DNA from: Magnetospirillum fulvum MGU-K5
Lineage (GTDB): Bacteria; Pseudomonadota; Alphaproteobacteria; Rhodospirillales; Magnetospirillaceae
DNA length: 57,607 bases
Direction of reading: 5' to 3'
Assembly: GCF_000442515.1 (NCBI RefSeq)
Contig: NZ_AQPH01000016.1
Location: 1-57,607 of the forward strand
Shown: positions 12,806-42,665 of the stretch, piece by piece
Layout of the letters: the number at the start of each line of letters is the position of its first letter
Position numbering within the stretch: position 1 is the stretch's first letter
Notes under the pieces: generated by a model
Database searches by the model: none
What the model was told of the DNA's origin: nothing
Seen by the model: the letters and a program-made list of their open reading frames with translations, nothing else
Translations under genes and position numbers: made by a program

Positions 12806-13150
12806 ATGACGATGTTCTTGTCCAGCACCTATGGCGAAACCCAACGCCGCCGCCGCACCGGCGACCGGGTGGTAGCGCTTGGCTGCGTGATCTGGCTGCT
12901 GGTGTCGGGCTGGATGTTCTTTGGCACCGTGCCGCCGGAAATCGTCGACAATCACACCTCGAAGACGATGCAGCAGCGGATGCGGGTGTGCGAAGGCACC
13001 TTTCAGCAGCGCTTCGAGTGCAAGCAGGCGTTCCTGCTGTCCGGTGAACGCTGGGGCTTTGCCGTCGCGCTCAACCGTTTGATGCTGATGTGCGCTCCGG
13101 CCATCACCGCCTGGATCGTCTGGACGGCGGTGCGCCGGAGAATCGAGTAG
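12806..13150 (+). CDS. Two-helix membrane protein, 114 aa, unknown
   Basis: Two hydrophobic segments, ~24-42 (ALGCVIWLLVSGWMFFG) and ~86-105 (ALNRLMLMCAPAITAWIVW), flank a hydrophilic loop with two cysteines (VCEGTFQQRFECKQ) likely to be disulfide-bonded in the periplasm. The short basic C-terminus (RRRIE) should be cytoplasmic. No family recognised. It lies between the DUF1178 gene and thiol peroxidase on the same strand, with 83- and 74-bp gaps. Confidence 0.65.
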   Translation: MTMFLSSTYGETQRRRRTGDRVVALGCVIWLLVSGWMFFGTVPPEIVDNHTSKTMQQRMRVCEGTFQQRFECKQAFLLSGERWGFAVALNRLMLMCAPAITAWIVWTAVRRRIE

Positions 13151-13224
13151 CCTTCCCTCGTTGCTCCGAAGCCGAGGATGGGGCACAGTCGCTGCTCTCG
13201 AATCCGTTACGGAGATGATACCTC

Positions 13225-13725
13225 ATGGCGACTATCACCCTTAAGGGCAACCCCGTCCACACCAGCGGCGAGTTGCCCGCGCTCGGAACCGCCGCCCCGG
13301 ATTTCTCCCTGACCGGAACTGACCTCGCCGATGTCGGCCTGGCCGCGTTCGCCGGTCAGACGGTGGTTCTGAACGTTTTCCCCAGCGTCGACACGCCGAC
13401 CTGTGCCGCGTCGGTGCGGCGGTTCAATGCCGAACTGAACACTCTGGGCACCGTCGCCGTGCTGTGCATTTCGGCCGATCTCCCCTTCGCCCAGGCCCGG
13501 TTCTGCGGTGCCGAGGGATTGGAGCGGGTCAAGCCGCTGTCCGACCTGCGCGACAAGGGCTTTGGCGACCGCTACGGTCTGCGGATCGTCGACGGCCCGT
13601 TGGCCGGGCTGCTGGCCCGCGCCGTCGTGGTGATCAAGGACGGCAAGGTCGTCCACACTCAGTTGGTCGCCGAAATTGCTGACGAGCCGGATTACGCCGC
13701 GGCTCTGGCTGCGGTCCGCGGCTAA
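13225..13725 (+). CDS. tpx: Thiol peroxidase (atypical 2-Cys peroxiredoxin)
   Basis: At 166 residues it matches Tpx length and sequence closely. The peroxidatic cysteine lies in PSVDTPTCAASVRRFN, and the resolving cysteine in CISADLPFAQARFCGAEGL; the C-terminal region has DGPLAGLLARAVVVI, typical of Tpx. It reduces hydroperoxides in the cytoplasm using thioredoxin. GGAG lies 10 nt upstream of the ATG (GGAGATGATACCTC then ATG). A single-gene unit followed by an inverted repeat. Confidence 0.96.
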   Translation: MATITLKGNPVHTSGELPALGTAAPDFSLTGTDLADVGLAAFAGQTVVLNVFPSVDTPTCAASVRRFNAELNTLGTVAVLCISADLPFAQARFCGAEGLERVKPLSDLRDKGFGDRYGLRIVDGPLAGLLARAVVVIKDGKVVHTQLVAEIADEPDYAAALAAVRG

Positions 13726-13764
13726 AGCGTGATGCATTAATCGGCACCATGCTTTAGCCGATTC
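13719..13764. terminator. Inverted repeat overlapping the tpx stop codon
   Basis: Perfect 10-bp arms cggctaaagc (13719-13728, containing the TAA stop) and gctttagccg (13751-13760). A second, mutually exclusive pairing, aatcgg/ccgatt, is nested at the 3' side. No T-run follows, so this may be a weak terminator or an mRNA 3'-end stabiliser. Confidence 0.5.
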
Positions 13765-13780
13765 ATACATCCCCCTCTGC

Positions 13781-13858
13781 CTAAGTGTGCCCTTCGGGCA
13801 CTTGGCCGCGGCCTCAATGGCCGCAAGCGCATCGTGCGTCATGTTTGGCGCACGATGC
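13781..13858 (+). repeat. Three consecutive hairpins in the leader of the cysteine-rich gene
   Basis: In order: aagtgtgccc-ttc-gggcactt; gcggcc-tcaat-ggccgc; and the perfect 10-bp gcatcgtgcg (13829-13838) / cgcacgatgc (13849-13858). They end 28 nt before the preferred start of the cysteine-rich protein, so an attenuator or structured leader is possible. Confidence 0.5.
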
Positions 13859-13885
13859 TCTCAACACAACAGCGGAGACGTGCCC

Positions 13886-14218
13886 GTGGAACCCAAGGAC
13901 AGCACCGCCAACGAAGCCTTCAAGGGCTTCACCAACAGCGAATGCCCGTTCTATCCCTGTCACCAGGGGGTAAAGCGGGCCTTCAACTGCTTGTTCTGTT
14001 ATTGCCCGCTCAACGCTTACGACTGTCCGGGCCCGTACAAGGCGTTCACCAGCAAGAACGGGGTGCGGCGGAAGGATTGTTCTGCCTGTACCCTGCCCCA
14101 TGACGGCCACACCCAATCCTGGGCGTTCATCCAAAAGTGGCTGGCCCAGCCGGTGCCGTGGGATGGGGGCGAACAGACCCGGCCGTGGCCGCGCGAATCC
14201 GACGAGCCAACGGAATAA
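13886..14218 (+). CDS. Cysteine-rich small-domain protein, 110 aa
   Basis: It contains a dense cysteine pattern: SECPFYPCH, FNCLFCYCPL, DCPGPY, DCSACTLPH. This matches the 'cysteine-rich small domain' (PF04071 type), probably a metal or Fe-S cluster binding fold; relatives often occur near cobalamin genes, but none is adjacent here. The preferred start is GTG 13886, with GGAG (13874-13877) 8 nt upstream. GTG 13880 is too close to that site, and the upstream ATG 13787 would add 33 residues translated from a hairpin-rich leader. Confidence 0.8.
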   Translation: MEPKDSTANEAFKGFTNSECPFYPCHQGVKRAFNCLFCYCPLNAYDCPGPYKAFTSKNGVRRKDCSACTLPHDGHTQSWAFIQKWLAQPVPWDGGEQTRPWPRESDEPTE

Positions 14219-14261
14219 GACCGGCCAACCCTCGATTTGACCGGCTGGCCGCGCTCTAGCC

Positions 14262-14459
14262 TTATTGCGGGGCCAGCCCCAGCTTTTCGACCTCGGCAAT
14301 CGCCACCGAATCGTCCTGCCCGGTCATCGACGCCAAAAACATCGCCGCCGCCGTCACCCCTTCGCGATGGGCAACGTCGGGGGAACGTCCCTGGGCCAGG
14401 GATTCCGAATAGGTCTCGTCATAGGCTTCGGCAACCATTTTTGCGGTACTATCGTCCAT
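14262..14459 (-). CDS. Small hypothetical protein, 65 aa
   Basis: Acidic, helical, soluble. From MDDSTAKMVAEAYDETYSES to VEKLGLAPQ there are no cysteines or membrane segments. The ATG at 14459 has AGGGGGA about 12 nt upstream; a GTG at 14525 in the same frame would add 22 Gly/Ser/Pro-rich residues and lacks a ribosome-binding site. Weak coding evidence apart from codon bias; family not recognised. Confidence 0.5.
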   Translation of the reverse strand: MDDSTAKMVAEAYDETYSESLAQGRSPDVAHREGVTAAAMFLASMTGQDDSVAIAEVEKLGLAPQ

Positions 14460-14627
14460 CGCCGGAACCGATCCCCCTACCCCGGTAAAGACCGGAGAAT
14501 ATCGCCGTCCTGGCGAGGTTTCCACTGCTGTTTCGCCGCGACGTCCCTAGGCCGAGGCGCGGTATCTCCGCCCCAGTGTTTCGTGATATAGAAACCGTCT
14601 TTCGCTTCTGACGCGGTGATCGTTTCA

Positions 14628-15584
14628 ATGCTAAAGCGGTGGTTGCCCTGGGTTTTAAAGGGATCGCTCTCCGTCGGTTTGATCTGGTTTGTCTTCAGCA
14701 AGATTGATCTGACTTCTGCCTGGGCTCAGGCCCGGACCCTCGACCCCTCGATGCTGATCGTCGCCCTGCTTCTCGGGCTGCTTCAGGTCTGGCTGGGGGC
14801 CTTCCGCTGGTGGCTGGTGCTCCGCGCCCTCAAAGCCACTTTCACCACGGTACAGACCTTTATCGTCTATTACATCGGGGTGTTCTTCGCGATCATTCTG
14901 CCCGGCGCCGTCGGCGGCGATGCGGTGCGGATGTGGACGGCGCGGCGGTCGGGCCTGTCGCTATCCGCCAGCATCAATTCGGTGATGCTCGAACGCGCCG
15001 CCACCGTGCTCGCCCTGGTCCTGCTGGTCGCAATAACCCAGCCGTTATTGCTGGCCCGCGTCCCCACCATCCCCGGAAGCTGGGTCTTTCCGGTGCTGTC
15101 GGTGCTGGGATTCATCGGCATTCTGGTCCTGGCCTCGCTCGACCGTCTGCCCACCTCGCTGCATCATTGGCGGGTGGTGCGCGGGCTGACCCATCTGGCG
15201 GGCGATACCCGGCAATTGTTCTTCCGCCCGACCTGGGGCGGTGCCACCCTGATCGTCGCGATGCTGGGCCACGTTAATCTGTCGCTTCAGGTCTATGCCC
15301 TGGCGCTGGGCCTGGGACTCGACGTGTCGGTGATTGATTGTCTGGTGTTGGTGCCGCCGGTGATCCTGATCATGACCTTGCCGATCTCGATCGCCGGATG
15401 GGGCGTGCGCGAAACCGCGATGGTTGCCGCGTTCGGCTATGTCGGGGTCGAAACCCACTCCGCCCTGGTGCTGTCGGTGCTGTTCGGATTGGTCTGCACC
15501 GTCACCGCCCTTCCCGGCGGGGTGGTGTGGCTGCTGTCTGATATCCGTCGTCAGAAACAGGCCGAATCGGCCGAGGCAAACTAG
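14628..15584 (+). CDS. Flippase-like integral membrane protein (UPF0104/lysylphosphatidylglycerol synthase TM family)
   Basis: About 318 residues and eight or so hydrophobic helices, beginning LPWVLKGSLSVGLIWFVFSK. Family marks include GAFRWWLVLRAL, the segment GVFFAIILPGAVGGDAVRMW (conserved PG-GGD in the flippase-like domain) and a late PISIAGWGVRETAM. Relatives belong to the LPG synthase TM/AglD group, linked to lipid or glycolipid handling; the substrate is unknown. ATG 14628 or GTG 14616 are possible starts; neither has a clear ribosome-binding site. Confidence 0.85.
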   Translation: MLKRWLPWVLKGSLSVGLIWFVFSKIDLTSAWAQARTLDPSMLIVALLLGLLQVWLGAFRWWLVLRALKATFTTVQTFIVYYIGVFFAIILPGAVGGDAVRMWTARRSGLSLSASINSVMLERAATVLALVLLVAITQPLLLARVPTIPGSWVFPVLSVLGFIGILVLASLDRLPTSLHHWRVVRGLTHLAGDTRQLFFRPTWGGATLIVAMLGHVNLSLQVYALALGLGLDVSVIDCLVLVPPVILIMTLPISIAGWGVRETAMVAAFGYVGVETHSALVLSVLFGLVCTVTALPGGVVWLLSDIRRQKQAESAEAN

Positions 15585-15615
15585 GGCCGGGGGACGCTCC
15601 CCCGAACCGCCCTAG
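15581..15615. terminator. Bidirectional terminator containing both stop codons
   Basis: Outer arms ctagggc (15581-15587) and gccctag (15609-15615) enclose the perfect inner stem cggggga/tcccccg (15588-15604). The outer arms carry the TAG stop of the flippase gene on plus and the TAG stop of the GST gene on minus. Confidence 0.65.
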
Positions 15616-16283
15616 AAATCCAGGTCGGCGTAATGGCGGGGCGGCGGCATCCCGGGCAGATGGTCGGACAGCAACGGCCGGAAGCTCGGGCGCGACTTGA
15701 CCCGGGCATACCAATCCTTGGCGGCGGGATGCTCTTCCCACGGCACGTCGCCGATGAAATCCAGACAGGACAATTGAACGGCGGCGGCAATATCGGCCAG
15801 CGAGAACGCGGACCCGGCCAGCCAGGCGCGCCGCTCGGTCAACCAGCCGATATAATCGAGATGCGCGCGGATCAACGAGAACGCCAGACGGATCCGCCCC
15901 GAATCCGGCTCGGAATGCCGACTGCCGAGACGGCGGAACACCTTCTGCCCGACCAGATTGTCGGTAACCTCGGTATAGAACTTGTAGCAGAACCAGCCGA
16001 CCAGACGCCGGACCTCGGCCCGCGCGGCGGGATCGCTCGGCAACAACGGCAGATCACGGTGGACCTCGTTCAGATATTCGGCAATGGCAATGGCGTCGGC
16101 CAGAACCGTGCCGTTATCCTCGACAAGAACCGGAACCTCGCTGGAGGGGTTGAGAGCGACGAAGTCCGGGCGCGCTTCCCAGAACTTTTCGATCTGCGCA
16201 TCGAACTCCAGCTTCTTCTCGCCGAGAACGACGCGGACCAGACGCGAAAACGGGCACAGCGGGTGATGATACAAGGTTCTCAT
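15612..16283 (-). CDS. Glutathione S-transferase family protein
   Basis: 223 residues. The N-terminal thioredoxin-like half is MRTLYHHPLCPFSRLVRVVL, with the Ser/Cys-rich CPFS where the glutathione thiol is activated, then NPSSEVPVL (cis-Pro) and LADAIAIAEYL (the Asp/Ser glutathione-binding motif). The C-terminal helical half includes AWLAGSAFSLADIAAAVQL, the N-capping motif of GST helix 6. A cytoplasmic detoxification or conjugation enzyme; the substrate is not predictable. Convergent with the flippase gene. Confidence 0.92.
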   Translation of the reverse strand: MRTLYHHPLCPFSRLVRVVLGEKKLEFDAQIEKFWEARPDFVALNPSSEVPVLVEDNGTVLADAIAIAEYLNEVHRDLPLLPSDPAARAEVRRLVGWFCYKFYTEVTDNLVGQKVFRRLGSRHSEPDSGRIRLAFSLIRAHLDYIGWLTERRAWLAGSAFSLADIAAAVQLSCLDFIGDVPWEEHPAAKDWYARVKSRPSFRPLLSDHLPGMPPPRHYADLDF

Positions 16284-16469
16284 GCCGTCTTCTTAACGCT
16301 TTTTTCCCCGTCCCACCAGAGGGCGAGAGACACCGCCCCCCGTCTTGCCCGCCTCGGACGCGAATTGAAAAAACTCCTGCGACCTCGTGTTTTTTCGCTT
16401 GCACCGATCGGCGGAGTTCCCTATAAACCGGGCCTCCGGTGATCGCCGCTCTCGTTTGAACGGCATTGC

Positions 16470-16545
<76 letters not shown>

Positions 16546-16577
16546 AGTTTTAAAGACGCACCGGCGTCTTAGGCCAA

Positions 16578-16609
16578 GGCCCGATCGCAAGATCGGGCCT
16601 TTCGCTTTT
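16578..16609 (+). terminator. Intrinsic terminator after tRNA-Lys
   Basis: The 9-bp stem ggcccgatc/gatcgggcc with a GCAA tetraloop (16578-16599) is followed by tttcgctttt. The same tttcgcttttt run recurs at the start of each downstream repeat unit (17305 and 17814). Confidence 0.9.
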
Positions 16610-16960
16610 CTGGCCCTTCAGCCAGATTGACAGCGCATCATCCCTAAGCCACCGTACGTACGGGCCTTCGTTTTCCTCTCTTCGCCACTGCCCGCTTTGT
16701 AAGTGGGGATAGGACGAGGACGAGAGAACGAAGGCCCTCTTCATCCCCGATCCATAACCCTGACCACGGCACGCGCCGTGGGCGGAAAACGATCGTCTCT
16801 GGATGGGAATGGTTCCCCGCGAGGTGCTGCACGCCGTACGGCCATCAGCGCCTGACGCCGCCCCCGAAAGGGCGTTTCCTCGCGCGGGAACCAGCATCAC
16901 CATACTCCCGCGCGATAAGCGTCTCAAGCGGCAGGAGCGTCAGTTCAAGCCCGACATCAT
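16598..16960 (+). repeat. Structured repeat element, copy A (possible ncRNA)
   Basis: First of three copies. Stem H1: gggccttcgtt (16662-16672) with aacgaaggccc (16727-16737), 11 bp, enclosing ccact/agtgg. Stem H2: ccacggc-acgc-gccgtgg (16764-16781). Stem H3: ggttccccgcgagg (16811-16824) with cctcgcgcgggaacc (16878-16892), 14 bp with one bulged base, enclosing the palindrome gccgtacggc and the hairpin cgccc/gggcg. Open frames on either strand are short and shared only partly between copies, so I read this as a structural RNA or DNA element rather than a gene. Confidence 0.75.
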
Positions 16961-17186
16961 CTAACCCGAAGCCATCCCGGCCTATCGCGTCGACGATACG
17001 ACGGTGAAAAAGCGAAGCCCCCGTACAGCTCAGGCGCATCCGCGGCTCATGCCGCATCCTCTATCCCGCCAGTGGGAGGCTCCACAATAAGGGTGGAGGA
17101 AATTGCAGACCGACGTCAAGGGATCGGACGGCAATGAATTGCTGCCAACCCTGGGGCAGAAGAAGTGCGGCATCCTCCGCCTGCCC

Positions 17187-17302
17187 CCCGAGGAAATCGA
17201 CAGGTCGGCGTCTATGATGGGCCGACTTACCCCGGCGTACACGATGACGGAGTTGGTACAGGATGCATCTGGACCACATTTACGGATTGCAGGAACGGCG
17301 GT
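17187..17302 (+). pseudogene. Decayed coding fragment, copy 1
   Basis: This stretch aligns with 17697-17812. In-frame it reads PEEIDRSASMMGRLTPAYTM and then diverges to a TAA. The equivalent in the other copy is a smoother amphipathic sequence. It appears to be the remnant of the 3' end of a small gene that was duplicated together with the structured element. No parent family recognised. Confidence 0.4.
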
Positions 17303-17304
17303 AA

Positions 17305-17663
17305 TTTCGCTTTTTAGCTCTGCGGTCAAATTGACAGCCCATCATCTCCCGGCTTAGTGTGGAGAGAGGGCCTTCGTTTTCCTCTCTTCGCCACTGCCCG
17401 CTTTGTAAGTGGGGACAGCGCGAGGACGGGAGAACGAAGGTCCGTGTCATCAAATATCTACACGCCCTGACCGCCACGCACGTCGTGGGCGGGAAAACGA
17501 TCGTCTCTGGATGGAATGGTTCCCCGCGAGGTGCTGCACGCCGTACGGCCATCATTGCCTGACGCCGCCCCCGAAGGGGCGTTTCCTCGCGCGGGAACCA
17601 GCGTCAATATACTCTCGCGTGATAAGCGTCTCAAGCGGCAGGAGCGTCAGTTCAAGCCCGACA
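17305..17663 (+). repeat. Structured repeat element, copy B (possible ncRNA)
   Basis: Second copy, the same order of stems as copy A. H1: gggccttcgtt (17368-17378) with aacgaaggtcc (17433-17443), one pair turned into a G-U wobble. H2 region: ccacg/cgtgg, shifted but still pairing. H3: ggttccccgcgagg (17518-17531) with cctcgcgcgggaacc (17585-17599), inner hairpin extended to cgcccc/ggggcg. Similarity to copy A continues past H3 to about 17663. Confidence 0.75.
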
Positions 17664-17696
17664 GAGATCCCGGACGCCCAGGTGGGGTCGTGGTCG

Positions 17697-17812
17697 CCCG
17701 AGGAAATCGACAAGGCGGTGTCGATGATGGGCCGGTTTACCGCGGCGGACACGATGGCGGGGCTGGCGCAGAATGACCTGGACCTGATCCACTCGTTGCT
17801 GGAACGGCGGGC
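17697..17812 (+). pseudogene. Coding fragment, copy 2
   Basis: In frame it reads PEEIDKAVSMMGRFTAADTM then AGLAQNDLDLIHSLLERR, a plausible amphipathic helical C-terminus, ending within the next repeat unit. It is the better preserved relative of 17187-17302. No start codon with a ribosome-binding site can be assigned, and no family is recognised. Confidence 0.4.
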
Positions 17813-17813
17813 C

Positions 17814-18100
17814 TTTCGCTTTTCAGCCCCCCTCGGTTATCGTTGGCTTCCCCCTCTTGTGTCGTCGCCGGAATGGCATGTCGTGCCGTGTGCTCGCCAT
17901 CTCCACCAATAGGTACCGCAAGAGGGGGAACTCGTTCCGCCCATCTCGATCCATAACCCTGACCACGGCACGCGCCGTGGGCGGAAAACGATCGTTTCAG
18001 AATGAGGAAGTCCCCGCCGAGGTTAACCGCGCCGTACGGCCATCATTGCCTAACGCCGCTCCGAAGAGCGCCCTTCGGTCGGGGACTGAAACCAATCTAC
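17814..18100 (+). repeat. Structured repeat element, copy C (possible ncRNA)
   Basis: Third and most diverged copy. H1 has a different sequence but still forms 12 perfect pairs: ttccccctcttg (17848-17859) with caagagggggaa (17919-17930). H2 is identical to copy A, in a block of about 45 conserved bases from 17949. H3: agtccccgccgagg (18009-18022) with its partner ending ggggact (18087), inner hairpin cgctc-cgaa-gagcg. Several pairs differ from copies A and B on both sides, which preserves pairing. The rest of the gap to 18259 shows nothing else except a weak NikR-like site. Confidence 0.75.
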
Positions 18101-18259
18101 ACGCCCGCGCCCCCCCTCAAACGGCAAAACGAACCGCCGCGCCAGAGAGCACGAGACCGGGCGGGTGGCGAAAACCCGGAAGGCGTGACGCAATATCCGC
18201 CGGTATGAATCTTCAGAAAATCGTATTACATTCCTTATGATCCGCTTAGGAGTGTTCCG

Positions 18260-19039
18260 ATGACCAATTTCACCCGGAAATCGCTGCTCCCTGCCCTTCT
18301 GCTGGCCTCGCTGCCCCTGGCCCCGTCCGCCCAGGCCCATTTCCAGGAAATCCTGCCCTCCACCGACATCGTCGCCGAAAGCGGCGACCGCACCGTCCGG
18401 CTGGACCTTCTCTTCACCCATCCGTTCGAGGGCGGGCCGGTGATGGAGATGGGGCCGCCGGTACAGTTCGGCGTGCTGGCCGATGGCAAGAAAACCGACC
18501 TGCGCGCGGCACTCGCCAAGAAGCCGGTCGAGGGCAAGACCGGCTATGAAGCGTCCTATCAGATCAAAGCGCCGGGCGATTACGTCTTCTATGTCGAGCC
18601 CGCGCCCTATTGGGAAGCAGCCGAGAAGAAATACATCGTCCATCATTCCAAGGTGGTGGTCGATTTCGGCTTGGGCGAAGGCTGGGACAAGCTGGTCGGT
18701 CTGCCCGTCGAAATCGAGCCACTGGTGCGTCCCTATGGCCTGTGGACCGGCAACCAGTTCCGCGGCATCGTCCGCAAGAACGGCAAGCCGGTTCCGTTCG
18801 CCGAGATCGAGGTCGAATGGGTCAATGACGGCTCTGTCAAGGCTCCGGCCGATCCTTTCGTCACCCAGGTCATCAAGGCCGACGCGTCGGGCCAGTTCTC
18901 CTACACCATGCCGCGCGCCGGCTGGTGGGGCTTCGCCGCTCTGACCGAGGGCGACAAGCCGATCAAGGGGCCGGACGGCAAACCCGCCAAGGTCGAAGTG
19001 GGCGGCCTGATCTGGGTCAAGGCTGTCGATATGAAATAA
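18260..19039 (+). CDS. nikK: Nickel transport component NikK-like (DUF4198)
   Basis: 259 residues with a signal peptide ending around SAQAHF; the mature protein begins near a histidine, typical for DUF4198 metal-handling proteins. The domain shows the family pattern [20 protein letters not shown], the [18 protein letters not shown] segment and a late PRAGWWGF. It is a periplasmic accessory subunit of NikKMLQO-type nickel/cobalt importers. It leads a five-gene operon with cbiM, nikL, cbiQ and cbiO, 53 bp ahead of cbiM. TTAGGAG lies upstream of its ATG. Confidence 0.85.
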
Positions 19040-19092
19040 GACGGGCGGGGCCGACCTTTGTGCCCCGCCCCGATTTCCGGAGCAGCCCAGGC

Positions 19093-19734
19093 ATGGCGCA
19101 TATCCCCGACGGCGTTGTCTCGTTTCCGGTTCTGGCCGTCGGTGCCGCCGTCACGGTGGCCGGGTGCGCCTATGCGCTGAAGCGCCTGCCTCCGGAACGC
19201 ATTCCCCAGGCCGCCATCCTGTCGGCGGTGTTCTTCGTCGCCTCGCTGGTGCATTTCCCGGTCGGCCCCAGTTCCGTCCATCTGATCCTCAACGGGCTGA
19301 CCGGGGTGATCCTGGGTTGGGCCGCGTTTCCCGCCATCCTGATCGCCCTGCTGCTCCAGGCGGTGCTGTTCGGCTTTGGCGGCGTGGTGGTGCTGGGGGT
19401 CAACGTCATGAATATGGCGGTCCCGGCAGTGATCTGCGGGCTTTTGTTCGATGTCCTGTACCGGCGCACGGGCGACTCCCCCCGGCTGGCCGCGCTGGCC
19501 GCCGGGTTCTGCGGCGGTTTGGGCGTGCTGCTGACCACGCTGGCGGTCGCGCTGTCGCTGGGCGTGAGCGGGCGCGAGTTCCTCCCCGCCGCCAAACTGA
19601 TCGTCCTGACCCATGTTCCGGTGATGGTCGTCGAAGCGGTGTTCACCGCCGCCGCGATCGGTCTGGTGCTTCGGGTCAAGCCGGGCTTCATCGCCCGGCC
19701 CGGCCTATCCCCCGCCTGGGAGCGCGTCGAATGA
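19093..19734 (+). CDS. cbiM: Nickel/cobalt importer substrate-specific subunit (CbiM/NikM)
   Basis: 213 residues and about six or seven membrane helices. The start MAHIPDGVVSFPVL carries the N-terminal histidine of the metal site, and LVHFPVGPSSVHLILNG carries the second histidine region. In this family the N-terminal amine and His2 coordinate the metal; here Ala follows Met, so removal of Met would put His at position 2. Start 19093 is set by this motif (the open frame runs further upstream). Overlaps nikL by ATGA. The nearby nikR favours nickel over cobalt. Confidence 0.93.
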   Translation: MAHIPDGVVSFPVLAVGAAVTVAGCAYALKRLPPERIPQAAILSAVFFVASLVHFPVGPSSVHLILNGLTGVILGWAAFPAILIALLLQAVLFGFGGVVVLGVNVMNMAVPAVICGLLFDVLYRRTGDSPRLAALAAGFCGGLGVLLTTLAVALSLGVSGREFLPAAKLIVLTHVPVMVVEAVFTAAAIGLVLRVKPGFIARPGLSPAWERVE

Positions 19735-20336
19735 TAAGACGGTTTGCCTTCGTCATCGCCGTGATCGCGCTGGCGCTGGGGACGGGCAGCCCGCCCGCCC
19801 TGGCCCACAAGATGAAGATTTTCGCCTCGGCCACCGGCGCGACGATCCTTGGCTATGCCTATTTCAATGCCGACAGCCGGGCCGTGCAGACCAAGGTGAG
19901 TGTGCGTGGCGCCGACGGCAGCACGGTCTTTACCGGTGTGACCGACGACAAGGGGCAGTTCGCCGTCCAGGCCACTCGCCGGATGGACCACCATATCTCC
20001 GTGATCGGCGATGACGGCCACATGGCCACCTTCACCGTCACCGCCGCCGAATTGCCCGACAGCCTGCCCCCGGCCGGAGGCGCGGCACCGGCCCCGGCGG
20101 CGGCGGTTCCGGCTGCCGCTGCGGCAACGGTGGTTGGGTCCGACGATCTGCGGAACTTCATCGACCAGAGCGTTTCGCGCCAGTTGCGCCCCTTGCGCGA
20201 ACAGATCGACGCCTATCAGGAAAAAATCTGGCTGCACGACGTGATCGGCGGCATCGGCTATATCGTCGGCGTGGCCGGGCTGGCCTTTGGTTTCGCCAAT
20301 CGCAGGCGACGCCCCCAGGTGACGGAGCCATCGTGA
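19731..20336 (+). CDS. NikL/CbiL-like importer subunit
   Basis: 201 residues: signal peptide (IRRFAFVIAVIALALGTGS... ALA) followed by HKMKIF, a carboxypeptidase-regulatory-like fold (KVSVRGADGSTVFTGVTDDKG), a Pro/Ala linker, a short coiled segment (LREQIDAYQEKIWL) and one C-terminal transmembrane helix (IGGIGYIVGVAGLAFGF) with a basic tail. This architecture matches the NikL component of NikKMLQO importers. Its ATG overlaps the cbiM stop and its stop overlaps the GTG of cbiQ. Confidence 0.82.
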   Translation: MIRRFAFVIAVIALALGTGSPPALAHKMKIFASATGATILGYAYFNADSRAVQTKVSVRGADGSTVFTGVTDDKGQFAVQATRRMDHHISVIGDDGHMATFTVTAAELPDSLPPAGGAAPAPAAAVPAAAAATVVGSDDLRNFIDQSVSRQLRPLREQIDAYQEKIWLHDVIGGIGYIVGVAGLAFGFANRRRRPQVTEPS

Positions 20337-21148
20337 GCGGGCTGCATCGCCACACCGGGAGCACCTGCCTGCTGGATGAGGCGTGCGCCGATCACGCCTG
20401 TCTGCATCCGCCGCTGGAACGCGGCGGGCTGATCCAACGCCTCGATCCGCGCAGCCGCGTCCTTGCCGCTGTTAGCTTCGCCCTGCTGGTGGTGGCGCTG
20501 TCCCATCTGCCGACGCTGGCCGTGGCGGTGGCGCTGGCGGTGGTCGCCGCCGTGCTGGCGCGGCTGGAGGTGGGAACGACCCTCCGCCGTCTGCTGGCGC
20601 TGGAGGGCTTCATGGTGCTGGCCCTGATGATGCTGCCATTCACCGTGCCGGGCGACCCCTTGTTCACCGTCGGCGGGCTGGAGGCCTCGCGCCAGGGAGC
20701 GGTGCAGGCGCTGGTGATCCTGTTGAAGGCCAATGCCGTGGTGCTGATGGTGCTGGCCCTGGTCGGGTCGATGGATACCGTCACCTTGGGCCAGGCGCTG
20801 CGGCGGCTGGGCGCGCCGGAAAAGCTGGTGCAGCTTTATCTGTTCACCGTCCGCTACCTCGATGTGTTGCACCGGGAATATCGCCGCCTTCGCACCGCGA
20901 TGCGGGCGCGCGCCTTCACGATGCGCAGCAACCGCCATACCTGGACCTCGATCGGCTATCTGTTCGGGATGCTGATGGTGCGCAGTGTCGAGCGGTCGGA
21001 ACGGATCGTCGCGGCGATGCGCTGCCGGGGCTTTGACGGCACCTTTCCGAGCCTGGAGACGCCGACCCGCTTTCAGCGCCCGGATGGGCTGTTCGCGCTG
21101 GCGTCGCTCGCCGGTATGGTCATGCTGATGACGATCGAGAGCCTGTGA
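20333..21148 (+). CDS. cbiQ: Energy-coupling transmembrane subunit CbiQ
   Basis: 271 residues with several hydrophobic helices and the cytoplasmic coupling motifs of ECF T components: EYRRLRTAMRARAFT and VERSERIVAAMRCRGFDG (two A-R-G type short helices that contact the ATPase). The N-terminal region contains an unusual His/Cys-rich stretch (HRHTGSTCLL..CADHACLH) that could bind metal. Starts with GTG overlapping nikL, and its stop overlaps the start of cbiO. Confidence 0.92.
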   Translation: MSGLHRHTGSTCLLDEACADHACLHPPLERGGLIQRLDPRSRVLAAVSFALLVVALSHLPTLAVAVALAVVAAVLARLEVGTTLRRLLALEGFMVLALMMLPFTVPGDPLFTVGGLEASRQGAVQALVILLKANAVVLMVLALVGSMDTVTLGQALRRLGAPEKLVQLYLFTVRYLDVLHREYRRLRTAMRARAFTMRSNRHTWTSIGYLFGMLMVRSVERSERIVAAMRCRGFDGTFPSLETPTRFQRPDGLFALASLAGMVMLMTIESL

Positions 21149-21807
21149 CGATGCCCCCGTTCTTTCGTTTGGACGGCGTCAGCTTCGCCTATGACCACGC
21201 CCATCCGGTGCTGGCGGGGGCCTGTTTCCGCCTTGCTCCCGGCGAGAAGGTCGCGTTGACCGGCCCGAACGGGGCGGGAAAGACCACGCTGTTCCATCTG
21301 ATGGTCGGCCTGCTGAAGCCCTCGTCCGGCACCATCGAAGCCTTTGGCGCGCCGCGCCGGACCGAACGGGAGTTCAAAGAGGTGCGTGCCCGCGCGGGCA
21401 TCCTGTTTCAGGACAGCGACGACCAATTGTTCTGCCCGACCGTGGCCGAGGACGTCGCCTTCGGTCCGATGAATCTGGGCCAATCCCCGGCAGACGCCCG
21501 CATCATCGTCGGCCAGACGCTGGAGATGCTGGGCCTGAACGGGTTCGAGACCCGGATCACCCACACCCTGTCGGGGGGGCAGAAGCGTCTGGTCGCGCTG
21601 GCCACCGTGCTGGCGATGCGTCCCGACGTGCTGCTGCTCGACGAGCCCACCAACGCCCTCGACGAAGCCACCGAGGCGCGGCTGACCGAGATCCTGCTGG
21701 GTCTGCCCCAGGCGATGGTCATCATCTCGCACGACCGGGCCTTTCTCGACCGCATCGCGACGCGGCGGGTGCGGCTCGACCACGGCCGGTTAAGCGAGAT
21801 CGGCTGA
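21145..21807 (+). CDS. cbiO: ATPase subunit of the nickel importer (CbiO/NikO)
   Basis: 220-residue ABC ATPase with Walker A GPNGAGKTT, Q-loop LFQDSDDQLF (the double Q/D typical of ECF ATPases), signature LSGGQKRL, Walker B VLLLDEPTNALD and switch His in ISHDRAF. It powers the CbiMQ complex. GTG 21145 overlaps the cbiQ stop; ATG 21151 is the alternative start. Last gene of the operon, convergent with nikR. Confidence 0.94.
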   Translation: MTMPPFFRLDGVSFAYDHAHPVLAGACFRLAPGEKVALTGPNGAGKTTLFHLMVGLLKPSSGTIEAFGAPRRTEREFKEVRARAGILFQDSDDQLFCPTVAEDVAFGPMNLGQSPADARIIVGQTLEMLGLNGFETRITHTLSGGQKRLVALATVLAMRPDVLLLDEPTNALDEATEARLTEILLGLPQAMVIISHDRAFLDRIATRRVRLDHGRLSEIG

Positions 21808-21834
21808 TCGCCGCCCCGGCGTTCGCGGGTCCGA

Positions 21835-22329
21835 TCAGGTCTTCGGACTGCTGTGGACATGCGGATGCGAGTGCGGATGGGCATGTCCGTCGCCGTCATC
21901 GTGATGGTGGTGGCTGTCGGTCACCTTCACCTCGACCGGCACGGCGTTCAGCGCCCCGTGGCGCACCCCGGTTTCCGCCATGATCGCATCGGCGAAACGC
22001 CGCACCGACGCCGTCGCCCCTTGGAGGATGCTGACCTCCATGCAATTCTCGTGGTCGAGATGGAGGTGCAGGGTCGAGTGGGTCAGATCGTGATGGGCGT
22101 GGCTGGCCTGGACCAGCCGCCGCGACAGATCCCGCTCGTTATGATTGTAGATATAAGACAGGCAGGCGATACACTGGCCGCTGTCAGCATCGGCCAACCG
22201 CTCGTTTTCGAGAACCTGGCGCAGGACATCGCGCACTGCTTCCGAGCGGTTATCGTATCCCCGGCGGTGGATGTAATCGTCAAATTGCGCCAGCAATGTC
22301 TCGTCGAGCGAAACCGTGAAGCGGTCCAT
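21835..22329 (-). CDS. nikR: Nickel-responsive repressor NikR
   Basis: 164 residues. Ribbon-helix-helix N-terminus (MDRFTVSLDETLLAQFDDYI, RSEAVRDVLRQ) followed by the ACT-like nickel-binding domain with HSTLHLHLDHENCMEV, which supplies the high-affinity His/His/Cys ligands. The C-terminus carries an extra His/Asp-rich tail (HHHHDDGDGHAHPHSHPHVH), not part of the basic fold, perhaps for nickel storage or sensing. It lies tail-to-tail with cbiO, 27 bp apart, and very probably controls the importer operon. Confidence 0.95.
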   Translation of the reverse strand: MDRFTVSLDETLLAQFDDYIHRRGYDNRSEAVRDVLRQVLENERLADADSGQCIACLSYIYNHNERDLSRRLVQASHAHHDLTHSTLHLHLDHENCMEVSILQGATASVRRFADAIMAETGVRHGALNAVPVEVKVTDSHHHHDDGDGHAHPHSHPHVHSSPKT

Positions 22330-22401
22330 CGGCGTGCCTCCCTGTTATGCTCCTTCGATAGCACAAGACAACGCCGATGACGTCCCGGCTTACGTAAAAA
22401 C

Positions 22402-22842
22402 CTAATCGACCTCATTTGCCGTCAGGAACATCGCCTTTTCGAGAGCGGCAAAAAATTGCTGATACGGAGCCGCATCAGAAACCGCCGACAAATTGTATTG
22501 AGCGCTGGCACGCACCGCAATTTGGGTTGTGCCGCGCGGACGGATGGTAATGGTCATCCGCATCGCATAACCGGATAACTTTGTCGCGCTGACCATTCCA
22601 AGCGTCTCGTCCGCCTTATCGACGACAAAACCAAGATCCTGGAGCGTCGCAATAACGTTGCGCAGGGTCAGCATCTTGTCGGTCGTATCGAAGGCACGGG
22701 TCTGAACCGCGCGTAATTCAACCTGACTCTTGTCTGTCAGGAGAACCTGCTGGCGTGAATCGGTTTGACACCCCCCCAAGACAAGAAGGAGGGCGCACCC
22801 GCAGACCAGCGAAAACAGCCCCCTGACTGAAATCCGGGTCAT
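22402..22842 (-). CDS. Small lipoprotein, family B (second copy)
   Basis: 146 residues with a lipoprotein signal (ALLLVLGGC, Cys at ~25). The mature part carries RAVQTRAFDTTD, then LRNVIATLQDLGFVVDKADE and a strand-rich segment with ITIRPRGTTQIAVRA. It is paralogous to the protein at 23867-24403 (same QTRA(F/Y)DTTD, VATLQD, VSATKLS, PRGT landmarks). Its ATG overlaps the stop of the preceding gene (ATGA). Last gene of a five-gene lipoprotein operon. Function unknown. Confidence 0.85.
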   Translation of the reverse strand: MTRISVRGLFSLVCGCALLLVLGGCQTDSRQQVLLTDKSQVELRAVQTRAFDTTDKMLTLRNVIATLQDLGFVVDKADETLGMVSATKLSGYAMRMTITIRPRGTTQIAVRASAQYNLSAVSDAAPYQQFFAALEKAMFLTANEVD

Positions 22843-23393
22843 ATCTGGTGCGCCTCCAGAAACACGGACTCAGACAGTTTGTCGAAGAACCGCTGATAGA
22901 TCACCGGATCGGCGATGGCCTCGACCCGTGACACCTGGCGTTTGTTGTTCCACACGATTCGCTGAAAGGTGACGCGAACCACCACCGCCGCCTTATCGGA
23001 CGCTGGCCGGGTAACAATAGAAACGCGGATTTTCTGCAACAGATCCCATTCCGGGTCCGCTCGGCCGCCCAGAGCCGTAATCAGCGCGGCGATGAACACC
23101 TGTCCGGCCATCTGCTGCGACTCGATCGCGTCACGGTCTTTGGAACCGACAATCAGGCCACTGCGTGTCGCCACTTCCTCAATGGTGAACCCCAAATCCT
23201 GAAGCACCGCCGACGTCGCGGACAAGATGGCCGACTCGTCCTTGGTATCGAAACGACGGGTCTGCATCTGCCGCTGGGCCATGCTTTCCGGGGCCAGAGT
23301 CAGAGCCGATTTCTGCTGTTGCAGATCGTCGCTCTGGCAGCCTCCGAGCGTGAGCACCATCATAGCCAGAAAAAGGGCGCGCACAGGAAGCAC
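22839..23393 (-). CDS. Small lipoprotein, family A (second copy)
   Basis: About 184 residues. Lipobox LTLGGC follows a short signal; the mature part has QMQTRRFDTKDE, LSATSAVLQDLGFTIEEV, LIVGSKDRDA and a late VTFQRIVWNNKRQ. Paralogous to 24400-24951 (shared TRR(F/Y)DT, LQDLGFT, V(A/G)SK.RDA and FFxKLS-(E/G)-VFLE). GTG at 23393 or 23384 are possible starts; the open frame extends into the upstream gene, but that part is not signal-like. Function unknown. Confidence 0.82.
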   Translation of the reverse strand: MLPVRALFLAMMVLTLGGCQSDDLQQQKSALTLAPESMAQRQMQTRRFDTKDESAILSATSAVLQDLGFTIEEVATRSGLIVGSKDRDAIESQQMAGQVFIAALITALGGRADPEWDLLQKIRVSIVTRPASDKAAVVVRVTFQRIVWNNKRQVSRVEAIADPVIYQRFFDKLSESVFLEAHQI

Positions 23394-23397
23394 CCGC

Positions 23398-23862
23398 TCA
23401 GAAGCTGCTGGAGCGATACGCGAAATCGCGGACCAGATTGTTCTCGTCAAATTTCACGATGACGGTCAACGTCCGTTGCGACGTGCTGGTGGCCCCGGCC
23501 CCGCTTTGGTAGCCCGCACCGCCGCCGCCGCCGAGAAGACCGGCGCCAATCAGCCCGCCGCCCAAAATCAGCGCATTGACCCCGCCGGAACTGGACGAAT
23601 GCACCGTCTCGGTCGAGATTTTGTCATAGACCCAGGTTTCACGACGCTTGTCATCGGTGGTCACCATGTTGGGTGCCCCCAAGACCTCGACGACATCGGA
23701 GCCGCTCATCCCGACGCGAATCTCCCTCTGCACTTTTCCCACCGTGATTTTGCTTCCGGCGTCCTGGGCTTTATGGACTTCGGCGGCGTGTTCCGACGCG
23801 CTTTGACACCCCGAAACCGTCATGGCGAAAGCAATGGCGGCAGGTCCGATGATGGTACGCAT
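23398..23862 (-). CDS. BamE/SmpA-like lipoprotein
   Basis: 154 residues from MRTIIGPAAIAFAMTVSGC (lipobox VSGC). The mature part has the BamE-like pattern EIRVGMSGSDVVEVLGAPNMV then ETWVYDK, followed by a glycine-rich insertion (LILGGGLIGAGLLGGGGGAG) and a final LTVIVKFDENNLVRDFAYR. This 'small protein A' fold is used in outer-membrane assembly factors and many unrelated lipoproteins, so a Bam role should not be assumed. It sits in the centre of the A-B-C-A-B lipoprotein operon, 4 bp from its upstream neighbour. Confidence 0.85.
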   Translation of the reverse strand: MRTIIGPAAIAFAMTVSGCQSASEHAAEVHKAQDAGSKITVGKVQREIRVGMSGSDVVEVLGAPNMVTTDDKRRETWVYDKISTETVHSSSSGGVNALILGGGLIGAGLLGGGGGAGYQSGAGATSTSQRTLTVIVKFDENNLVRDFAYRSSSF

Positions 23863-23866
23863 CGCG

Positions 23867-24403
23867 TTAATTCCCCTGTGCTGGTGTCGGTTTGGAAACA
23901 GGTTCAGACGCTGGGATGGAACCGCTGACCGCTTTATTCGGAGCAACGGATTGTCCACCCCCACTGTCTTCGACTTGAAGCGCCTGAAGGAACATCGCCT
24001 TCGATAAAGGCTCGAAAAACAGCTTCTGATAAAATTGCGGGTCGTCGACCTGGGTATTCCTCGCCTCGATCTTGACCATCGCGTTGGCACGGACCGTCAT
24101 CTGCGACGTCCCGCGCGGATAAACCGTGGCCGTCAGCCGCAAGGTAGACAATTTGGTGGCCGAAACCGTTCCCGCCAACGGTTCCACCTTGTCGAGGGTA
24201 TAGCCCATATCTTGCAGCGTGGCGACGATGGCACGGAGCGTCTTGTTACGGTCTGTCGTGTCATAGGCACGAGTCTGCATGGCCCGGAGTTCAACGGCGG
24301 GCTTTGCGCTCAGCACATCGGGGGCGACTTGGTCAGGCCGTTGACAGGCGGAAAGCGACAGCGCCATGGCGGCAGCCGCAACGATTGTCGTCAGACGCTT
24401 CAT
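23867..24403 (-). CDS. Small lipoprotein, family B (first copy)
   Basis: 178 residues; lipoprotein signal MKRLTTIVAAAAMALSLSAC. Mature part: RAMQTRAYDTTDRNKTLRA, VATLQDMGYTLDKVE, VSATKLSTLRL, YPRGTSQMTV, then FFEPLSKAMFLQ, and a Pro/Ser-rich tail of ~30 residues absent from the second copy. ATGA overlap with the upstream family A gene implies translational coupling, as in the other A-B pair. Function unknown. Confidence 0.86.
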   Translation of the reverse strand: MKRLTTIVAAAAMALSLSACQRPDQVAPDVLSAKPAVELRAMQTRAYDTTDRNKTLRAIVATLQDMGYTLDKVEPLAGTVSATKLSTLRLTATVYPRGTSQMTVRANAMVKIEARNTQVDDPQFYQKLFFEPLSKAMFLQALQVEDSGGGQSVAPNKAVSGSIPASEPVSKPTPAQGN

Positions 24404-39528: not shown

Positions 39529-42500
39529 ATGCCGCATTTTTTCATCGAACGGCCGGTCTTTGCCTGGGTCGTCGCGCTTTTCATCATTTTGCTGGGGCTG
39601 ATCGCCCTGCCGCAATTGCCGATCGCGCGCTATCCCTCGGTGGCGCCGCCCACGATCAACATCTACGCCAACTATCCCGGCGCCACCCCCCAGACGATGA
39701 ACGATTCGGTGCTGAGCCTGATCGAGCGCGAATTGTCGGGCGTCAAGAACCTGCTCTATTTCGAATCGACCGCCGACACCTCGGGCTGGGCCCAGATCAC
39801 CGTCACCTTCAAGCCGGGGACCGACCCGGAACTGGCCCAGGTCGATGTTCAGAACCGGTTAAAGACGATCGAGCCGCGTCTGCCTCAGGCGGTGCGGCAA
39901 AACGGCCTCAACATCGAATCCGCCTCTTCGGGCTTTCTGATGCTGATTACCCTCAAATCCGAGGATGGCCGCTTCGATGAAACGACGCTGAGCGACTATA
40001 TGGCGCGCAACATCATCGAGGAATTGCGCCGGATCGAGGGGGTTGCCGGGTCCAGTTGTTCGGGGCCGAACAGGCGCTGCGCATCTGGGTCGATCCGTCG
40101 CGGCTGATCGGTTTTGGCCTGTCGATGAACGATCTGTCGACGGCGATTACCCAGCAGAACGCCCAGATCGCGCCCGGCCGGGTCGGCGATTCCCCCACCG
40201 TGGCGGGGCAGCGCGTCACCATTCCGCTGACCGTGCAGGGACAATTGCGCACGCCCGAGGAATTTGCCGCGATCGTGCTGAAAGCCAATGCCGATGGCTC
40301 AAAGGTGGTTCTGGGCGATGTGGCGCGGGTCGAGCTGGGGGCCCAGACCTACAGCTTCGTCAATCGCGAGAACGGCAAGACCGCCACTGTCGCCGCCGTG
40401 CAGCAATCGCCCGGTGCCAACGCCGTCCGCACTGCCGAGGGGGTGCAAAAGCGGCTGGCGGAACTGAGCCACACCCTGCCGTCGGGGATGAGCTATGCCG
40501 TCCCGTTCAACACCGCTCCCTTCGTCAAGATTTCAATCGAGAAGGTCGTCCACACCCTGCTCGAAGCGATGGTTCTGGTGTTCCTGGTGATGCTGCTGTT
40601 CCTGCAAAACATCCGCTACACCCTGATTCCGGCGATTGTCGCCCCGATTGCCCTGCTCGGCACCTTTACCGTGATGCTGATGGCCGGGTTCTCGATCAAT
40701 GTCCTGACGATGTTCGGGATGGTGCTGGCAATCGGCATCATCGTCGATGATGCGATCGTCGTGGTCGAAAACGTCGAACGCTTGATGGCAACCGAGGGCC
40801 TCTCGCCCAAGGAGGCGACGGTTAAGGCGATGACCGAAATCACCGGCGCGGTGATCGGCATCACCCTGGTTCTGACCGCCGTGTTCATTCCGATGGGATT
40901 GGCGAGTGGTTCGGTCGGAGTGATCTATCGCCAGTTCACCCTGTCGATGGCGGTATCGATCCTGTTCTCGGCCTTCCTCGCCCTCAGCCTGACCCCGGCC
41001 TTGTGCGCCACCCTGCTCAAGCCGGTCGATCCCGGCCATCACGAAAAAGGCGGGGTCTTTGGCTGGTTCAACCGCCGCTTCGACCGCATGACCCGATCCT
41101 ATGAACACCGGGTCACCGGCCTGGTTCGCCGCTCGGGCCGGATGATGGCGGTGTTCGTCCTCCTGTCTGTCGTGCTGATCCTGGCCTTCCGCGCCTTGCC
41201 CTCGGCCTTTCTGCCCGAGGAAGACCAGGGCTATTTCATGACTTCGTTCCAATTGCCGTCCGATGCGACGCAGGAACGCACGCTGGATCAGGTACGCCAG
41301 TTCGAGTCGCATGTCGCGGCGCGGCCGGGCATCCAGTCGAACATCTCGATCCTGGGCTTCAGCTTTTCCGGGTCCGGCCCCAATGCCGCACTGGCTTTCA
41401 CCATGCTGAAGGATTGGGACCGGCGGGACGGTGCCACCGCCGCCGACGAGTCGGCCCGCGCCCAAGCGGCGATGTCGGACATCACCGAAGGTACGGTGAT
41501 GAGTCTGCTGCCGCCGTCGATTGATGAAATGGGAACGTCGTCCGGCTTCAGCCTGCGTTTGCAGGACCGCGCCAACCGGGGCCACGCCGCCCTGAAAGCA
41601 GCCGAGACACAATTGCTGGAGTTAGCCGCGCAAAGCAGCATCGTTGCCAATGTCTATCCCGACGGCCTGCCCACCGGTCCCAGCCTTCATCTCGACATCG
41701 ACCGCCAGAAGGCCGAGGCGCTGGGGGTTCCCTTCACCGCGATCAGCGAAACACTGACGGCGGCGATGGGCTCGCTGTACATCAACGACTTCCCCAATGC
41801 CGGACGGATGCAGCAGGTGATCGTCCAGGCCGACGCCCCGGCCCGGATGCAGATTGACGACGTTCTGAAGCTGTATGTCCGCAACGCAAACGGCGGCATG
41901 GTGCCGTTGGCCGAAGTGGTGACGCCGGTATGGGAAGATGCGCCGTTACAGATGGTGCGCTATCAGGGCATCCCATCGGTCCGCATCTCCGGCAGCCCGG
42001 CCCCCGGCGCGTCGAGTGGCGCGGCGATGGCCGAGATGGAACGGATCGCCAAGCAACTCCCCTCCGGCTTCGCGGTGGAATGGACCGGGCAATCGTTGCA
42101 GGAACGGCAATCGGCGGCCCAGGCCCCGTTGCTGCTGGCCCTGTCGATGCTGGTGGTGTTCCTGGTGCTGGCGGCGCTGTACGAAAGCTGGGCGATCCCG
42201 CTCTCGGTGATGCTGGTGGTCCCGCTCGGCCTGTTGGGCGCGGTCGCGGCAGTGATCCTGCGCGAGATGCCCAACGACGTCTTCTTCAAGGTCGGCATGA
42301 TCACGGTGATCGGCCTGTCGACCAAGAACGCGATCCTGATCGTCGAATATGCCCGCCAATTGCACGCCCAGGGTATGGAGGTGCGGGACGCGGCGGTCAC
42401 GGCGGCGCGGCTGCGGCTGCGTCCGATCCTGATGACCTCGCTGGCGTTCACGCTGGGCGTGGTGCCGCTGATGCTGGCCTGGGGCTCCAGTGCCGAGACC

Positions 42501-42665
42501 CAGCACGCGATTGGCACCGGCGTTTTCGGCGGGATGATTACCGCCACCGTGCTGGCGGTGCTGTTCGTTCCCGCCTTCTTCGTTTTCGTCATCGGCGGAT
42601 TGGAACGGCTGGACGACTGGCGGCGTGCCCGTCGTTCCAGCGCGCCGCCGCACAACAAGAGTTGA
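39529..42665 (+). pseudogene. RND efflux inner-membrane pump (AcrB/AdeB type), frameshifted
   Basis: Two overlapping frames together make one HAE1-family pump of about 1045 residues, the normal length. The first (39529-40107) gives MPHFFIERPVFAWVVALFI through IEELRRIEGV, then derails. The second is in frame from about 40047 and continues VQLFGAEQALRIWVDPSRL to the end. Inserting one G in gttgcc at 40045-40046 would restore GVGRVQLFGAEQ, the standard family sequence. The second part has all usual marks: GMVLAIGIIVDDAIVVVENV with the proton-relay Asp pair, and GLSTKNAILIVEYA with the relay Lys. Either a real mutation or a sequencing error. Confidence 0.9.

Follow-up and report, generated by a model that had tools for sequence, protein, structure and literature searches.

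Three hairpin-bearing copies behind tRNA-Lys

The window analyzed, a 57,607-nucleotide stretch of contig NZ_AQPH01000016.1 of Magnetospirillum fulvum MGU-K5, contains a tRNA-Lys gene (16470-16545) followed by an array of three copies of a hairpin-bearing sequence, namely, copy A (16598-16956), copy B (17305-17663), and copy C (17808 to about 18125). The first-pass annotation had proposed three diverged copies at this position, and the comparison of the sequences bore this out. The features are listed below, and all z scores refer to shuffled sequences.

16470-16545, plus strand: tRNA-Lys (CTT), neighbor of the array and probable integration landmark (ARAGORN; Rfam tRNA model, 73.3 bits)
16576-16601, plus strand: intrinsic terminator-like hairpin after tRNA-Lys, its T-run being the start of copy A (homology with G006 ends at 16616)
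16662-16737, plus strand: H1 hairpin of copy A (z -5.98; H1 model match)
16748-16805, plus strand: H2 block of copy A (55/58 identical to C; z -2.66 for 16745-16800)
16810-16893, plus strand: H3 hairpin of copy A (folding, pair changes, H3 model)
17187-17303, plus strand: spacer S1, decayed polyvalent-protein fragment (one-base frameshift relative to spacer S2; 78.4% to S2)
17368-17443, plus strand: H1 hairpin of copy B (z -6.45; H1 model match)
17461-17515, plus strand: H2 block of copy B, hairpin unsupported (z -0.13 for 17455-17508)
17517-17600, plus strand: H3 hairpin of copy B (folding, pair changes, H3 model)
17694-17810, plus strand: spacer S2, frame SPEEIDKAVSMM...LLERR (47% over 36 amino acids to a polyvalent protein of genome G014)
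17848-17930, plus strand: copy C stem in the H1 position, 12 perfect pairs, homology to the H1 of A and B undetected (sequence, folding)
17947-18004, plus strand: H2 block of copy C (z -3.33 for 17945-18000)
18008-18088, plus strand: H3 hairpin of copy C (folding, pair changes, H3 model)

Sequence identity varied largely between blocks. Copies A and B were 93.4% identical in H1, 74.6% in the linker plus H2, and 96.4% in H3, and the corresponding values for B and C were 64.1% in H1 (over the 64 alignable positions out of 76), 79.2% in H2, and 75.9% in H3 (79 of 84 positions aligned). Copies A and C were 94.8% identical over the 58-nt H2 block (55/58) and 73.2% identical in H3. Since A and B have H1 and H3 in common and A and C have H2 in common, the blocks form a mosaic. 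A search of the 3.77-Mb assembly with copy A (E ≤ 0.001) returned three places, all within the array; neither a fourth copy nor dispersed copies as in palindromic repeats or MITEs were thus found in the genome. About 230 bp of the A unit (16957-17186) lacked an equivalent in either the B or the C unit, and segment 16940-17310 matched only its own genome among 17 genomes of the genus.

The tRNA-Lys gene is an insertion site in the genus. This is illustrated by genome G006, of which the tRNA-Lys region matches the window at 87 to 95%; the homology (window 13001-24000 against 19 kb of G006) ends at window position 16616, and an island of ~11 kb lies behind the tRNA-Lys of G006, bounded at its distal end by a 50-nt repeat (98%) of the tRNA 3' end. 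Second matches to the 3' half of the tRNA in G003 (on another contig) and G005 (13 kb away) may also point to insertion at tRNA-Lys. For the M. fulvum locus itself, neither an attR site nor a repeat of the tRNA 3' end was found among the eight matches in its own genome, the only one on the contig of the window being the tRNA itself. The G006 island (L213 5489-16640, G006:C9) encodes an RND efflux pump, an HlyD-type protein, and a MerR regulator. An AcrB-type efflux frame is also present at window 40056-42665; its match begins at profile position 177, and the N-terminal part is in another frame or missing.

Gene fragments in the repeat unit and relatives in other genomes

The unit of ~230 nt initially described is too small. 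The repeat unit is ~500 bp, with a gene fragment in front of both B and C: S1 plus B (17187-17660, 474 bp) and S2 plus C (17697-18130, 434 bp) are colinear from end to end, with the gene fragment included. The translation of S2 (17694-17810) is SPEEIDKAVSMMGRFTAADTMAGLAQNDLDLIHSLLERR. When this peptide was compared with 40 related genomes, including its own, two were matched, namely, its own and G014 of the same genus (E 5e-6), in which the match sits inside a 1,522-amino acid frame. The G014 protein bears an LPD3 domain (PF18798, E 1e-14), and S2 is homologous to this LPD-bearing polyvalent protein. PMC5512222 describes polyvalent proteins from phages and conjugative elements.

The alignment of S2 with the G014 protein runs on past the spacer (FRFS versus FRYA), and the bases encoding FRFS are the run that had been taken as the start of each unit. 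This common run is indeed present, but its context differs among the copies: in A it is the tail of the tRNA-Lys terminator, in B it comes after the frameshifted copy of the polyvalent fragment, and in C it continues the polyvalent-protein-like frame. The array contains no intact long polyvalent reading frame, as the matches span ~40 amino acids and S1 is frameshifted. Similarity to a conserved protein, which had been named as evidence against a structured RNA, was found for the spacers but not for the hairpins. Between B and C, H2 and H3 (79.2% and 75.9%) are not better conserved than the frameshifted spacer (78.4%).

The S2 peptide had no match in Pfam or in phages and a single chance-level match in PHROGs (E 0.31). 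The hairpins showed no convincing match at six loci with long polyvalent frames. Translated array pieces gave, apart from the spacer, only weak matches to these loci; the best of them, a minus-strand match of copy C (E 0.001, 45% over 40 positions), was attributed to chance and lies opposite an open frame of 836 residues.

Relatives of the hairpins were found in one further genome only, G004, of the same genus. At the DNA level, 2 of 317 genomes of the order matched at E ≤ 1e-4 (its own and G004), the H1 model matched the same two among 314 genomes, and the H3 model matched 4 of 314 at E ≤ 0.01; these searches scored part of the candidates per genome, and the models used stricter filters, so that weak relatives could be missed. 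Two of the four H3 model matches were borderline (E 0.008 and 0.0095 per genome, with 314 genomes searched) and are probably due to chance. The H3 lineages A/B and C have one relative each, both in G004 amid transposase debris, where the A-type and C-type hairpins lie 193 bp apart from start to start (L150 6350 and 6543), flanked by a broken DUF772-type transposase and a DDE_Tnp_1_4 transposase. A polyvalent fragment, 54% identical over 57 amino acids, is located beyond the latter, ~1.4 kb past the second H3. The single H1 of G004 is on a different contig, in opposite orientation and ~310 bp from the tRNA-Lys of that genome, between this tRNA and a gene that weakly matches phage lysozyme (E 0.0017, short of the Pfam cut-off); on that side, a phage-integrase gene follows after another ~5 kb. 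H1 and H3 are thus separable. The presence of both H3 types in both genomes suggests that the types predate the species split, unless one of them was transferred. G004 also contains a dispersed repeat (L175, L177, L178, L179, and L180) of 62 to 68 bp with 79 to 85% identity, a copy of which lies directly before the H3 copies; it is perhaps a transposon end.

Further searches returned little. In viral contigs, 40 stretches fitted the pattern of the 57-amino acid fragment of G004, of which one was confirmed, over residues 34-55 only; one viral contig thus encodes a short relative of the fragment. A class-wide search with this fragment (E 1e-7) gave 0 matches in 385 genomes, a figure that is uninformative because the search had no positive control. 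The DNA search of plasmid and phage collections gave no match, the blastn comparison of 154 loci gave matches of at most 46 nt outside the own genome and G004, and longer patterns of H1, H2, H3, and the H1 core each gave 0 matches in viral contigs. A 15-nt core pattern occurred in at least 117 stretches of genome contigs and in 21 of viral contigs and is too short to be meaningful. Matches of 22 to 40 nt in G001, G013, and G057 lie inside ordinary-looking gene sequence and were judged by eye to be chance. With Rfam, only the tRNA reached its gathering score in the window, and the copies had no convincing subthreshold match; the strongest weak match in bits was CC0196 (24.7 of 35 bits), which overlaps the tRNA terminator.

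Folding, pairing, and conservation of the hairpins

The H1 hairpins of A and B folded far better than shuffled sequences, with z scores of -6.0 and -6.5 on the plus strand and -3.1 and -4.1 on the minus strand. Their energies were -48.9 and -53.3 kcal/mol (plus) as compared to -40.2 and -37.8 kcal/mol (minus), and the plus strand was favored under RNA and DNA parameters alike. The G004 H1, evaluated with RNA parameters, agreed with A and B in strand, as it folded better than shuffles on the plus strand (z -3.5) but not on the minus strand (z -0.9). Across these three sequences the inner H1 core is invariant and the arms vary: two pairs were changed on both sides, six showed one-sided changes between Watson-Crick and G-U pairs, and five were broken in one sequence each. 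Changes on both sides (2 of 31 pairs) were equaled in 59 of 500 shuffles, the RNAalifold covariation term was -0.54, and the neutral-change test from B to G004 was not significant (pairs, P 0.35 and 0.13; energy, P 0.12 and 0.10).

In copy C, the stem at 17848-17859/17919-17930 does form the 12 perfect pairs reported for it. Its interpretation as a diverged H1 was not upheld, as homology to the H1 of B was undetectable when H1 was aligned by itself, with 28 of 300 shuffles scoring equally high. This stem has energies of -37.0 (plus) and -37.9 kcal/mol (minus) and z scores of -2.3 and -3.5, respectively. The wobble pairs in the H1 of B and the H3 of C had been read as favoring plus-strand RNA; a preference for this strand holds for the H1 of A and B but not for the C stem or H3, in which the minus-strand energy is lower. 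Similarly, a hairpin H2 had been assigned to all three copies, whereas the block of B, in contrast to those of A (z -2.66) and C (z -3.33), folds no better than shuffles (z -0.13).

For H3, the z scores of A, B, and C were moderate on the plus strand (-2.75, -1.77, and -2.13) and amounted to -3.67, -3.69, and -1.88 on the minus strand. The minus-strand energies (-54.2, -51.1, and -41.7 kcal/mol) were below those of the plus strand (-48.4, -45.4, and -36.6 kcal/mol), also under DNA parameters. The G004 A-type H3 folds (z -3.24); the G004 C-type H3 has a z score of -0.18 and has partly lost its outer stem, three of the outer pairs being disrupted and a further one gapped.

The earlier statement that at least two outer-stem pairs of H3 changed on both sides was correct, the count being 4 of 14. 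Over the entire hairpin, 4 of 19 pairs were so changed, a number reached by 29 of 500 shuffles. The H3 covariation score exceeded that of all 500 shuffles, a control that ignores that the rows represent two lineages, and the RNAalifold covariation term was +1.36. With the five H3 sequences falling into just two lineages (A/B and C), significant covariation can hardly be expected. In neutral tests from B to C (2,000 simulations for each of two substitution schemes), stem pairs were kept better than at random (P 0.011 and 0.006), as was energy (P 0.045 and 0.014); these P values are optimistic because the region was picked for looking paired. In the apical core, which was chosen after inspection of the alignment, 1 of 28 aligned sites differed, as compared to 18 of 51 in the rest of H3 (P 0.002). 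This conservation points to constraint in some period, although the H3 of A and the A-type H3 of G004 deviate from B inside the core. The C-type H3 (window 18002-18082 and L150 6545-6625 of G004) is 97.5% identical over 81 nt, and stretches left of tRNA-Lys are 81 to 89% identical between the same genomes; judged by these identities, the former value may reflect either constraint or transfer.

The first-pass annotation had recognized in the copies the pattern of a structured noncoding RNA family. The paired changes it relied on are real, but they need not mean a functional RNA, since they come from two lineages and one contrast and template switching can alter both arms. A functional noncoding RNA family is possible but unproven. 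A lineage-specific family of this kind, with three paralogous plus-strand RNAs that comprise H1 to H3, are under selection, and perhaps regulate the element or the host, is in our view rather doubtful. The retention of the H3 stem (P about 0.01), the conserved apical core, the plus-strand folding of the G004 H1, and the invariant inner H1 core with variable arms argue for it. However, H3 is represented by two lineages only, H1 pairing retention is not significant (P 0.10 to 0.35), the H2 of B and the G004 C-type H3 fold no better than shuffles, and copy C has no recognizable H1. In addition, H1 and H3 are on separate contigs in G004, the tRNA alone matched Rfam at gathering score, and the array, for which only 2 of the 317 genomes searched in the order gave a match, is located amid mobile-element gene debris. 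It is unlikely that H1-H2-H3 is a new modular structured RNA of a polyvalent-protein-bearing element targeting tRNA-Lys, which would have been under selection and amplified in tandem after insertion and would include the invariant inner H1 hairpin and the H3 apical core.

The strand preference of H3 bears on a DNA-level explanation, according to which the palindromes are single-stranded DNA sites (for recombination, transfer, or a replication origin) or a small mobile palindromic element, with pairing mended by replication template switching and not by RNA selection. The lower minus-strand energy of H3 in all three copies under both parameter sets agrees with this, as does the fact that the paired changes fall within one contrast. 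According to PMC8794818, template-switch mutations can change both arms of a hairpin at once, and template switching can create and maintain hairpins. Yet H1 favors the plus strand in A and B (RNA and DNA parameters) and in G004 (RNA parameters), and the genome has no dispersed copies, unlike typical palindromic repeats. We therefore consider this explanation distinctly unlikely.

H3 could also be a coding relic, since a frame that reads VPxEVxxAVRPxxPxAAPxxAxxR runs without a stop through H3 in each of the five copies, the main gap has a length of three bases, and the differences between B and C are distributed 7/3/10 over codon positions 1/2/3. Among A, B, and the G004 A-type, however, only 2 of 14 pairwise differences are at position 3, and searches of phages, plasmids, and viral contigs with the H3 peptide yielded no relative (in the viral contigs, 14 stretches fitted the pattern and 0 were confirmed). 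Matches at E ≤ 0.1 were found in 8 of 99 related genomes, namely, its own, G004, and six weak ones taken as chance (E 0.017 to 0.083). A coding origin of H3 is accordingly highly improbable.

Origin of the array and comparison with known systems

The polyvalent fragments, the tandem unit, the transposase debris, and the tRNA-Lys neighborhood are most simply accounted for by a mobile-element relic. We assign a probability of roughly 0.6 to the region being a tandemly duplicated, decayed relic of a mobile element at tRNA-Lys, the noncoding part of which carried real hairpins. A piece of a phage- or conjugative-type element would have inserted right behind the tRNA-Lys terminator. The ancestral unit of ~500 bp would have combined part of a large polyvalent protein gene with the H1, H2, and H3 stretch behind it, and unequal recombination may have copied this unit into blocks of the A/B type and of the C type, probably at a time when the two species had not yet diverged. 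A and B would have been duplicated later, within the present lineage, and the segments of the gene have since been disrupted. A transcript of the parent element probably included the hairpins, in the case of H1 most likely from the plus strand, but at this locus a relic is more probable than an active gene.

Several results suggest otherwise, namely, H3 pairing kept better than under neutrality, the constrained apical core, and the 97.5% identity of the C-type H3 as compared to 81 to 89%. The fact that no intact parent element was found also counts against a relic, as do the failure to find an attR site for this locus and the lack of a convincing hairpin match at the six loci with long polyvalent frames. 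The hairpins may have been RNA elements of the parent element, H1 being the better candidate, and any activity of the copies at this locus would be hypothetical.

The array provides a clean test case of the reliability of compensatory changes observed in a small number of paralogs. Its pairing is genuine and exceeds what random change would leave, but with tandem duplication, dead fragments, two lineages, and template switching as an alternative, a functional RNA is as yet unproven.

Bacterial palindromic repeats and MITEs (REP or RPE type) are short, strongly palindromic, and located in or beside other genes. The hairpins of the array share these properties but differ in that there are three copies in a single tandem array and none dispersed. 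GOLLD is an example of the structured RNAs of prophages or tRNA neighborhoods. The array resembles such RNAs in its stable hairpins and its position beside a tRNA and mobile-element debris, whereas its copies are smaller and have no Rfam match at gathering score. Compared with large polyvalent proteins (LPD3, PF18798), the locus holds only short, broken fragments, and its hairpins have no convincing match at long-frame loci; the spacers and the G004 fragment nevertheless match the 1,522-amino acid LPD3 protein of the same genus. Discovery of an intact parent element could bring to light a structured RNA associated with polyvalent-protein mobile elements.
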